From Clostridia bacterium (GTDB taxonomy: Bacteria > Bacillota > Clostridia > Christensenellales > CAG-138): 64,000 nt of DNA. The notes below the pieces were generated by a model that searched no databases, was not told where the DNA came from, and saw nothing but the letters and a program-made list of their open reading frames with translations. Below are positions 10,193-15,123 of the stretch, piece after piece (within the stretch, counting starts at the first letter, position 1; each line of letters opens with the position of its first letter). The stretch spans positions 1-64,000 of the forward strand of contig JAUNCT010000011.1 of assembly GCA_030526425.1 (NCBI GenBank), read 5' to 3'. A program made the position numbers and the translations under genes.

Positions 10193-10222
10193 ATAGTACC
10201 ACCACTTGATGTGTTTTGTCAA
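10193..10222 (-). promoter_or_regulatory. Promoter of tRNA-Met
   Basis: TTGACA (10217-10222), 18-base spacer and TACTAT (10193-10198) on the minus strand, with the tRNA start 13 bases downstream. It interleaves with the divergent promoter at 10206-10234. Confidence 0.65.
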
Positions 10223-10234
10223 GCGTGTTACACT
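10206..10234 (+). promoter_or_regulatory. Promoter of the C_GCAxxG_C_C protein gene
   Basis: TTGATG (10206-10211), 17-base spacer and TACACT (10229-10234). Its -35 lies between the -10 and -35 of the tRNA-Met promoter on the other strand, so both cannot be occupied together. Confidence 0.6.
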
Positions 10235-10264
10235 CATTTTTGCAAAAAAAATTCGGAGGTTTTT

Positions 10265-10720
10265 ATGACTTCTTACGGAGAAACAGCGGCGGAGCTTTTC
10301 GGCAACGGATACAACTGTGCGCAGGCGGTGGTCGGCGCGTTTGCGGAGGCGTTCGGTCACGATGCGGTCCGTTCGATGCAGATGGTCCAGCCGCTCGGCG
10401 GCGGCGTCGGCAGGCAGCGCGAGGTCTGCGGCGCGGTCACGGGCATGTGTCTCGTGCTCGGCATGGCGGAAGGCAACGGTGAACCCGGTGCCTCGAACAA
10501 AAAAGAGATCTACGAGGCGACGCGTGCGCTGTGCGATGCGTTCCGTACGGAAAACGGATCCATCCTCTGCCGCGATCTTCTCGGGTTTGCGGAGGGCGAG
10601 AAGGGCGGCGACCCCGAACCCCGCACGGAACGGTATTACAAAACGCGCCCCTGCAAGGAACTCGTCGCCCATGCGGCTGAGATCGTTGCGGCGTATCTTT
10701 CCGAGAAAGGACTGCTGTAA
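10265..10720 (+). CDS. C_GCAxxG_C_C family protein
   Basis: A 151-residue small cytoplasmic protein of a Cys-rich family named after its motif. Here the Cys pattern is C18 (YNCAQAV), C55 and C62 (CGAVTGMC), then further Cys in ALCDAF, ILCRDLLG and RPCKELV. Family members occur mostly in anaerobes, and a redox or metal-binding role is assumed but not proven. The ATG at 10265 is chosen for its GGAGG; an upstream in-frame start would overlap the promoter. A strong terminator follows. Confidence 0.85.
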   Translation: MTSYGETAAELFGNGYNCAQAVVGAFAEAFGHDAVRSMQMVQPLGGGVGRQREVCGAVTGMCLVLGMAEGNGEPGASNKKEIYEATRALCDAFRTENGSILCRDLLGFAEGEKGGDPEPRTERYYKTRPCKELVAHAAEIVAAYLSEKGLL

Positions 10721-12465: not shown

Positions 12466-15096
12466 TCATTCCGCCGGGCTTTGGGCTTGAACGAGTTCGC
12501 TCAGCGCGCCGAGGGAGAAGGTCGCCTTTTTGCCGCCGAGCATGGACAGGATGGATTTTTCGACGGCGAGCACCTCTTCTTTGAACTGCTTCGCGGGGAC
12601 GCGCTCGGCGCCGTTGCCGAGGATGATCATCTGCTCGGGTCCGTCGCTCGTGGCAACGCGGACGCGCCGCTCCTTCGCAAGCGTGTAGGTCGCGCGTTCG
12701 ATGAAGGCGTCTGCGGTCTCGGCCTCCTTGGTGTACACGATGCAGATGTTGTGGTATTGCTCGACCGTGCCGGCGTTGCCCTTGACGCGGTAAGCGTCGA
12801 ACACGAGGATCAGCCGGCAGCCGGTGTAGCCCTGATAGTTCGAAAGGATGTCCGCCAGCTTCGCGCGCGCGGCGTCGATATTCGTTTCGGCGGTCTTTTT
12901 CAGTTCTTCCCACGCGAACAGGATGTTGTAGCCGTCGACCAAAAGGTATTCGGTCTTCGGTGCCGCGTCCGCGAAAACGGTCTCCTCGCGGCGCTTCTGC
13001 GAGCGCAGCGCGATGAGCGGGTTCCGTTTGATCGGTCCGTAGGTCTGCTCGAAGATCTTGATGAGCGCCGCGTCCTCTTCAAGCGGCGACAGCGCCTTTT
13101 TCGGCTGCGGGCGGGGCGCCGCTTCCTGTGCCATGGGGCGGTAACCGTCCTTGCGCCAGCCGGAATCGAGGTGCATGTATTGGGGCACCTCGTTCCATTT
13201 CACGTTGAAGCCCGCGCCGTGGTCGCAGAACACGGAATCGGGCGTGTTCGCAAGGTCCGCCTCGGGGTCGTAACCGATCGCCGCGACGATCTCGTCTTGG
13301 TCGCCCGAGGGGCGGTAGCCGGACGGCGCGGTGGAGAGCATCCCCTTGCCGTGCGTGTAGGCGATGAGGTCCTTTTGGTAATTGCGGATGTGGCGCACCG
13401 CCGCGGTCCCCGTGATGAACGCGGTATCGCCGATGATCTCGGGCGCGGAGAAGGTCGCCTTCATCATCGTCAGGTCGTTCAGCGCGCGGCCGATCTGCTC
13501 CTGCGGGACCGTCAGGCGGAAGCTGTACCACGGTTCGAGCAGCACGCTTTGCGCCTGCATCAGACCCTGACGGATCGCACGGTAGGTCGCTTGACGGAAG
13601 TCGCCGCCCTCGGTGTGCTTGAGGTGCGCCTTTCCTGCGATCAGCGTGATGCGCACATCCGTCAGAGGGGAACCCGTCAGCACGCCGAGGTGCTTCTTTT
13701 CGCGGAAATGGGTGAGGATGAGGCGCTGCCAGTTGCGGTCGAGCACGTCTTCGCTCAGTGCGGAGCGGAACTCCATCCCGCGGCCTGCGGGCAGGGGCTC
13801 GAGCAGCACGTGGACTTCGGCGTAGTGGCGCAGCGGCTCGTAGTGACCGACGCCCTCGACCGGGGCGGCGATGGTCTCGCGGTAGGCGATGCTGACGGGC
13901 AGGAAGGTGATGTCGTACCCGAAGCGCTCCTTTACGCGGCGCGTCAGCACCTCGATCTGCACCTCGCCCATGAGCTCGCACAGCAGCTCGCGCGTTTGCT
14001 CGATCCAGTGGATGCGGAGCATCGGCTCTTCCTCCGACAGCGTGCGGAAGGAGCGCGCCGCCTCGTGCAGGTTCGTGCCCTCGGGGAAGCAGATGCGGTA
14101 GATGAGCACGGGCTCGAGCAGACACGCGGGAGAATCCGGTTCGGCGCCGAGTCCGTCGCCCGCCTGCGCTTGGGTGAGTCCCGTCGCGGCGACGATCGTG
14201 CCCGCCTCCGCGGTGGCACAGGGCAGCGACTTCGTGCCGGAAAGCAAGCGCAGCTCGTTGACCTTTTCGCTCCACAGCGTTTCGCCGTCGCGCAGCTTCA
14301 TCACCATGTCCTTGCGGTTCAGCACTCCGCCTGTGATCTTCATGTGGGTGACGCGTTCGCCGCGGCTGTCGGTCGAGACCTTGTAGACCTTTGCGGCGAA
14401 CTCCGCGGGGTACTCGGGCTCTTCCCCGTAGGTGCGGATGGCGTCGACAAGCTCTTCCACCCCCTGCATCCGGAGCGCGGAGCCGAACAGGCAGGGGAAG
14501 CAGTGCCGCCCCATGACCGCCCGCGGGATATCCTTTTCGGCGAACCCGTGCTCGGAAAAGGCGAAGTGCATCAGCAGCTCATCCGAGGAGATGATGTCCT
14601 CGAGCCGTTCCTCCGGGTCGCGTCCGGGCGTGAAATCGATGCAGGCTTCCGACAGGTGGCGGCGCAGCTGCGCCATGAGCTCCTCCTTCGTGTAGCCCGA
14701 AAGGTCCATCTTGTTGATATAAAGAAACACGGGCACATCGTGCTTTTCCAAAAGCCGCCACAGCGTGAGCGTATGGCTCTGCACGCCCTCCGCACCGTTG
14801 ATCACGAGGATCGCGCAGTCGAGCACCTGCAGCACGCGTTCCGCCTCGGGCGAAAAGTCCACGTGTCCCGGGGTATCCAAAAGCGTCAGCTCGCAGTCGC
14901 CCGCGGTCAGACGCGCCTCCTTCGACCAAATGGTGATGCCGCGTTCGCGCTCCTGCGCGTCCGTGTCGAGGTAGGCGTCGCCGTGGTCCACGCGCCCCAG
15001 TTTGCGGGTCGCGCCCGTCGTATACAGCAGCGCTTCGCACAGCGTCGTTTTGCCGCTGTCCACGTGCGCGAGGATCCCGATCGTCAGACGTTTCAT
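12466..15096 (-). CDS. TetM/EF-G-like ribosomal GTPase fused to a YacP/Rae1-type NYN nuclease domain
   Basis: An 876-residue fusion. Residues 1-640 follow the EF-G/TetM plan: G1 AHVDSGKTT (10-18), G2 RGITI, G3 DTPGH (74-78), G4 NKMD (128-131), then domains II-V. The domain IV loop reads TEGGDF, as in EF-G, not the PVSTPADF of tetracycline protection proteins. After a linker, residues 715-876 form a complete NYN_YacP domain: LLVDGYN, VFDAYRVKG, YTKEAETAD and VATSD. In Bacillus YacP/Rae1 is a nuclease that enters the ribosomal A site and cuts mRNA. I infer a GTP-driven factor that acts on ribosomes and cuts mRNA or resolves stalls. Classical tetracycline resistance is less likely. AAAGGAG precedes the ATG. 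Confidence 0.85.
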   Translation of the reverse strand: MKRLTIGILAHVDSGKTTLCEALLYTTGATRKLGRVDHGDAYLDTDAQERERGITIWSKEARLTAGDCELTLLDTPGHVDFSPEAERVLQVLDCAILVINGAEGVQSHTLTLWRLLEKHDVPVFLYINKMDLSGYTKEELMAQLRRHLSEACIDFTPGRDPEERLEDIISSDELLMHFAFSEHGFAEKDIPRAVMGRHCFPCLFGSALRMQGVEELVDAIRTYGEEPEYPAEFAAKVYKVSTDSRGERVTHMKITGGVLNRKDMVMKLRDGETLWSEKVNELRLLSGTKSLPCATAEAGTIVAATGLTQAQAGDGLGAEPDSPACLLEPVLIYRICFPEGTNLHEAARSFRTLSEEEPMLRIHWIEQTRELLCELMGEVQIEVLTRRVKERFGYDITFLPVSIAYRETIAAPVEGVGHYEPLRHYAEVHVLLEPLPAGRGMEFRSALSEDVLDRNWQRLILTHFREKKHLGVLTGSPLTDVRITLIAGKAHLKHTEGGDFRQATYRAIRQGLMQAQSVLLEPWYSFRLTVPQEQIGRALNDLTMMKATFSAPEIIGDTAFITGTAAVRHIRNYQKDLIAYTHGKGMLSTAPSGYRPSGDQDEIVAAIGYDPEADLANTPDSVFCDHGAGFNVKWNEVPQYMHLDSGWRKDGYRPMAQEAAPRPQPKKALSPLEEDAALIKIFEQTYGPIKRNPLIALRSQKRREETVFADAAPKTEYLLVDGYNILFAWEELKKTAETNIDAARAKLADILSNYQGYTGCRLILVFDAYRVKGNAGTVEQYHNICIVYTKEAETADAFIERATYTLAKERRVRVATSDGPEQMIILGNGAERVPAKQFKEEVLAVEKSILSMLGGKKATFSLGALSELVQAQSPAE

Positions 15097-15123
15097 TTGC
15101 AGTACACTCCTTTACCATCATAA

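Follow-up and report, generated by a model that had tools for sequence, protein, structure and literature searches.

The window, a stretch of 64,000 nucleotides of contig JAUNCT010000011.1 from a Clostridia bacterium, contains on its minus strand one open reading frame of 876 codons that starts with ATG and encodes an EF-G/TetM-fold GTPase followed by a Rae1/YacP nuclease. The features of the gene and its product are the following:

12466..15096, minus strand: whole fusion ORF, 876 amino acids (ORF reading, Pfam, homologue alignment)
15107..15113, minus strand: ribosome-binding site AAAGGAG, about 10 nt ahead of the ATG (sequence)
14428..15090, minus strand: GTPase domain, residues 3-223, with the motifs AHVDSGKT, RGIT, DTPGH, NKMD and GSAL (Pfam, alignments)
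14149..14400, minus strand: domain II, residues 233-316 (Pfam, model superposition)
13906..14112, minus strand: domain III, residues 329-397 (Pfam, model superposition)
13549..13890, minus strand: domain IV, residues 403-516 (Pfam, model superposition)
13810..13848, minus strand: subfamily-specific signature loop of domain IV, GHYEPLRHYAEVH, residues 417-429 (alignment)
13594..13617, minus strand: tip loop of domain IV, HTEGGDFR, residues 494-501 (alignments)
13303..13545, minus strand: domain V, residues 518-598 (Pfam)
13153..13299, minus strand: conserved C-terminal extension of the GTPase (IGYDxExD..SVFCxHGAGFxVxW..YMH), residues 600-648 (alignment, model)
12958..13146, minus strand: flexible linker, residues 651-713 (pLDDT <50 on either side of one helix)
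13039..13086, minus strand: linker helix, residues 671-686 (alignments, model)
12532..12951, minus strand: NYN_YacP/Rae1 nuclease domain, residues 716-855 (Pfam, sequence match, alignment, fold)
12934-12936, 12925-12927, 12796-12798, 12709-12711 and 12643-12645, minus strand: catalytic D721, N724, D767, D796 and D818, in that order

The Pfam domains follow one another in the order GTP_EFTU (E = 1.3e-48), EF-G_D2, EFG_III, EFG_IV (1.1e-19), EFG_C (1.2e-15) and NYN_YacP (5e-46), EFG_III and EF-G_D2 also being above the cut-off. Motifs G1-G5 and domains II-V are arranged as in EF-G, which places the protein among the EF2-family translational GTPases; the GTPase domain (residues 3-223) is short and has no G' insert of the EF-G kind. 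The linker, with a median length of about 76 residues among the fusions, contains a motif, D/E-EL-x-x-IFERTYG, that is conserved specifically in fused proteins and includes the helix at residues 671-686. Cys and His residues are conserved in the extension that ends the GTPase (PCHN and FCxHG; MHC in unfused forms) and perhaps form a metal site. Elsewhere in the window (10211-10720), a redox-type protein with the pattern C_GCAxxG_C_C is encoded beside a tRNA-Met gene and is unrelated to the fusion.

A full-length AlphaFold2 model built with 57 sequences (mean pLDDT 84) predicts a confident EF-G-like body (residues 1-648), a low-confidence linker (651-713) and a confident nuclease (716-855). When superposed, the body of the GTPase matches EF-G with a Z score of 41 and TetM with 32. 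When modelled alone, the nuclease superposes on Rae1 of Bacillus subtilis with a Z score of 20.5 and an rmsd of 1.7 Å over 135 residues, the second-best fold being far below (Z 8.5), and its sequence matches the B. subtilis Rae1 structures 5mq8/5mq9 with an E-value of 1.7e-24. An assembly chimera was ruled out, given that many clostridial genomes encode full-length homologues with 44-57% identity, including those of Ruminococcus flavefaciens FD-1, Intestinimonas butyriciproducens, Anaerovorax odorimutans and Agathobacter rectalis. The Pfam domains, the Rae1 match, the superpositions and these homologues together establish as real the GTPase-nuclease fusion that a sequence-only reading of this DNA had proposed at 12466-15096. 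In alignments of 34 and 57 fusions, the GTPase motifs and the nuclease residues vary little or not at all. The residues D7, N10, D53, D81 and D104 (Rae1 numbering) are retained in 118 of 118 fusions and in 34 of 34 free forms, so that the loss in orthologues that the sequence-only reading had named as speaking against its proposal is found in none of them. Both catalytic modules are, as judged from the sequences, intact and conserved in the fusion.

The architecture itself is not new. In one sentence of their survey, Atkinson et al. (2015, BMC Genomics 16:78, PMC4342817) reported Tet proteins that had acquired a YacP-like NYN RNase domain in ten clostridial species, and suggested a link to antibiotic resistance; as far as that account goes, the function was left untested. 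No experimental work on the fusion was found in the literature searched, which covered the Rae1 literature in part. What is new here is that the fusion is widespread in Clostridia and stands repeatedly in place of rae1, with decayed rae1 remnants in some genomes, that it has lost the tail of free Rae1, and that its GTPase can be set apart from the tetracycline protection proteins.

By sequence criteria, the GTPase stands apart from its relatives EF-G and TetM as a distinct subfamily. Against the tetracycline protection model NF012153, the fusion scores 391.5 bits, about half of the curated score (cut-off 775), and other members of the subfamily score 374-442 bits, with 849.3 for a Tet(O) control. 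By this cut-off, the protein is not a tetracycline protection protein of the TetM type. Against the EF-G model TIGR00484, the fusion reaches 262 bits (cut-off 659.4). In the alignment, HTEGGDFR occupies the tip of domain IV, where Tet(O/W) has PVSTPADFR and EF-G VDSNETAFR. The sequence-only reading had correctly noticed the missing PVSTPADF loop; its description of TEGGDF as EF-G-like has to be dropped, since HTxGGDFR is, among aligned relatives, the signature of the GTPase's own subfamily. H491 aligns with the tip histidine of EF-G, a position occupied by tyrosine in Tet(O/W). Loop I of domain IV (GHxEPLRHYAEVH) is a further mark of the subfamily, and the extension after domain V (SVFCxxGAGxxVxWxxVxxYMH) is present in fused and unfused members and absent from Tet(O/W) and EF-G.

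Ten genomes of the class sample described below have an unfused GTPase, and five of them have no NYN gene at all. Given that the GTPase also occurs without the nuclease, it has a function independent of it. The co-occurrence of unfused GTPase and free Rae1 was considered as proof of coupling and rejected as uninformative, as it concerns 5 of 10 genomes and two families only. In the GTPase tree, 11 of the 12 sampled unfused members fall outside the fused clade (SH-aLRT 99). Inside that clade lies a GTPase without nuclease encoded beside rpsN on a megaplasmid of L. salivarius (NC_007930.1, L170:3986-5920), which suggests a secondary loss of the nuclease. The record of the A. rectalis fusion (L169, NZ_CP143948.1) bears the name 'TetM/TetW/TetO/TetS family tetracycline resistance ribosomal protection protein', and that of the L. 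salivarius protein an identical one. With 374 bits for the L. salivarius protein and 391-442 bits for the fusions, both fall far short of the 775 bits that the curated model requires. Of the chromosomal genes of gut Clostridia that databases list as tetracycline protection proteins, many probably have another identity, which has a bearing on counts of resistance genes.

The distribution of the fusion was studied in a class sample of 196 Clostridia genomes, all at least 90% complete except the window's own genome (72%). About 74 genomes (a few of them represented by contig-edge fragments) have the fusion, 59 a standalone YacP and 63 neither, giving 133 with a YacP domain. No genome of this sample has both forms, compared with 22 expected under independence (Fisher 6e-16, a statistic that ignores phylogeny and is not corrected for it). 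A phylum sample of 249 genomes gave 16 fused, 119 standalone and again none with both. Fusion absence rests on the NYN search, in which all candidates were scored; GTPase absence is less reliable in both samples, where 4-6 candidates were scored per genome. Fused and standalone states occur side by side within each of four families (f46, f47, f51 and f154).

Canonical rae1 lies in the order mrnC-rlmB-rae1-sigH, as found at 12 of 17 standalone loci. The rlmB locus was retrieved from about 50 genomes and was taken as readable where sigH was also visible. No intact rae1 lies between rlmB and sigH in 28 of the 29 readable fusion genomes, while it is present in all four readable standalone controls. 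In the window's own genome (C7:14457), which is one of the 28, the rlmB and sigH frames adjoin, with no NYN match between them. Remnants of rae1, on the rae1 strand, persist in this slot in five fusion genomes from three families (f51, f78 and f46), with E-values of 1e-16 (G085), 9e-8 (G172), 3e-6 (G215), 1e-4 (G258) and 8e-4 (G146), the last two being weak. The clearest is that of G085 (L206:2361-2718), which can be aligned along its length with the intact rae1 of its congener G119 (L205) but is broken by deletions and frameshifts and has stop codons in every frame. In G388 (L079 and L191), the fusion and canonical rae1 are both intact, the intermediate state expected of a replacement. The empty or decayed slots in fusion genomes show that the fusion replaced rae1 repeatedly, and the evidence from the remnants is independent of any phylogeny correction. 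Free rae1 thus becomes dispensable where the fusion is present. No other evidence argues as strongly as this replacement for a fused nuclease that performs the task of Rae1; what the replacement shows is an overlap with Rae1 function, not identical substrates. The job itself is dispensable, since many close relatives have neither form; in the window's own family, about two thirds of 37 genomes have no YacP domain.

The fused NYN domains form essentially one clade, apart from the free forms, and the fused GTPase domains also form essentially one clade, which shows a single origin of the fusion. The two halves have been kept joined across a very wide range of families. The distribution is patchy and the location of the gene variable, with no conserved operon partners or neighbours across 115 fusion loci. 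Phage or plasmid mobility was rejected as the main story, as plasmid matches to full-length fusions amount to two large replicons. The fusion also occurs in two GenBank records titled 'Bacteriophage sp.' (L175, MT835563.1; L258, MT835514.1), and a phage origin of both was dismissed because their neighbours (FeoB, GltX, MraW, SIR2) look bacterial-chromosomal. At one locus (L007, G029:C30:4181-6765), the fusion is split over two frames of 634 and 314 amino acids, by decay or assembly error. A standalone YacP of 173 amino acids with no adjacent GTPase (L041, G302) falls inside the fused clade, and is possibly a nuclease released from the fusion.

In free Rae1, a tail of the form LEK(L/W)RR is conserved (EKWRR in B. 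subtilis, with W164 and R166), and the R166P change in B. subtilis behaves as loss of function (PMC6613710). In the window protein, the Pfam NYN_YacP match reaches no further than position 136 of the 166 in the profile, and this tail is missing, so that the nuclease that had been described as complete is so in its catalytic core and not at its C-terminus. Among 115 fusions, the tail stops at least 20 positions short in 69 and is otherwise degenerate. The strict pattern is found in 3 of the 115, versus 24 of 34 free forms, most of the other free forms having close variants. The recruitment to the ribosome that depends on the tail in Rae1 may have been handed to the GTPase in the fusion.

Domain IV of both EF-G and TetM enters the A site of the ribosome. 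The A site is also where Rae1 cleaves mRNA (PMC12320835). Because its catalytic residues are invariant, rae1 has been replaced and the tail is lost, a Rae1 nuclease carried by a GTPase is the best-supported reading, and the fusion is probably an mRNA endonuclease of the Rae1 type that depends on the ribosome and has a translational GTPase built in as its carrier. In its GTP-bound state, the carrier would bind ribosomes with a vacant or slowly filling A site and place domain IV into or beside that site. The nuclease, tethered behind domain V by the flexible linker of about 76 residues, would then cut the mRNA exposed in the A site or close to it. It would probably do so once domain IV has pulled back upon hydrolysis of GTP, and a shortened mRNA and a ribosome in need of rescue would be left behind. 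Ribosome binding, cleavage, GTP use, cut site and the order of steps are what we infer for the fusion, and the order is a guess; domain IV and the nuclease cannot share the decoding site simultaneously. More tentatively, the fusion may represent a ribosome rescue factor of a new class, which would sample the A site by means of GTP and thereby license cleavage; the state of the ribosome, and not the nuclease's own search for the A site, would then decide whether the mRNA is cut. The earlier proposal that the GTPase brings an mRNA nuclease to the ribosome thus agrees with the reading favoured here, except that nothing points to drug-bound ribosomes in particular, as nothing resembling an attenuator leader was found and four genomes with the fusion also have true tet protection genes.

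The two halves could instead be coupled loosely, the nuclease working as Rae1 alone, the GTPase doing an unrelated job on the ribosome (recycling, back-translocation or stress translation) and the fusion providing co-expression. The existence of unfused GTPases in genomes that have a separate Rae1 as well as in genomes that have none, the plasmid-borne GTPase of L. salivarius that lost its nuclease within the fused clade, and the long and flexible linker all agree with such an arrangement. We nevertheless regard it as unlikely, given that the free-Rae1 tail is degenerate in the fusions, that the IFERTYG motif of the linker is conserved specifically in them, and that the halves stay joined over so many families. 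A protein protecting against tetracycline or other A-site drugs, with an added RNase, was proposed in the 2015 survey (PMC4342817), and tet_protect is indeed the nearest named family, with public records calling relatives TetM/TetW/TetO/TetS family. This is improbable for proteins that score 374-442 bits where the cut-off is 775 and a Tet(O) control reaches 849, that lack the PVSTPADF loop which meets tetracycline, and that have the tip His of EF-G. Moreover, the fusion is broadly chromosomal, without the pattern of acquired resistance, and true tet protection genes were found in 12 carriers, 4 of them fusion genomes (G086, G095, G108 and G212). The 142 nt between the gene and the upstream stop codon leave no room for an attenuator, and a drug-inducible leader was rejected, as a terminator that follows the upstream gene, recognised by eye, takes up part of this interval. 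A consensus search upstream of the fusion found no promoter-like site, and the three terminator-like sites found are the number expected by chance.

The chance is equally small that the nuclease cuts rRNA or tRNA, in maturation or destruction of ribosomes, after being placed by the GTPase on the intersubunit face. Maturation of rRNA and tRNA was the role first suggested for NYN domains (Anantharaman and Aravind, cited in PMC4342817), but this one is specifically Rae1 by sequence and fold, Rae1 cuts A-site mRNA (PMC12320835), and it is rae1 that the fusion replaces at genome level. A defence or toxin-like shut-off factor would suit the patchy distribution and variable location; with no PADLOC match, no conserved defence neighbours and two phage records that are chromosomal pieces, it is very improbable.

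Few bacterial enzymes other than Rae1 are known to cut mRNA within the ribosome. With a large natural family that has this nuclease joined to a translational GTPase, and with the free gene decayed, Rae1's choice of ribosomes becomes directly testable. Compared with Rae1/YacP of B. subtilis (5mq8), the fused nuclease (PF05991) has the NYN fold and all catalytic residues in common, and the two share a genomic niche, since one replaces the other. Free Rae1, however, is a protein of about 170 amino acids encoded between rlmB and sigH, with the EKWRR tail and no GTPase, and the fusion differs in all of these. The Tet-NYN proteins of Atkinson et al. (2015) match the fusion in architecture and clostridial lineage, although they were classed as Tet, and the sentence given to them there mentions neither rae1 replacement nor tail loss nor a distinction from Tet. 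Tet(M) and Tet(O) have the same order of domains (G, then II-V, without the G' insert), with about 27-31% identity and a fold Z score of 32 to TetM, whereas the fusion lacks the PVSTPADF loop, has another C-terminal extension, reaches half of the curated score and has an added nuclease. EF-G is close in fold (Z 41) and shares the tip His of domain IV, yet the fusion has no G' insert, scores 262 bits against a cut-off of 659, has other loops in domain IV and carries the nuclease. Unfused GTPases of the subfamily, such as WP_164920261 of L. salivarius pMP118, have the same loops and C-terminal extension but no nuclease, the chain ending at MHC; their records name them translation factor GTPase family or TetM/TetW/TetO/TetS family. 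In eukaryotes, Ski7, Hbs1 and the no-go-decay nucleases provide a case in which a relative of translational GTPases brings RNA decay to stalled ribosomes. The likeness is one of working principle only, as there the nucleases are unrelated, the chains are separate and the GTPases are of the EF1 type.
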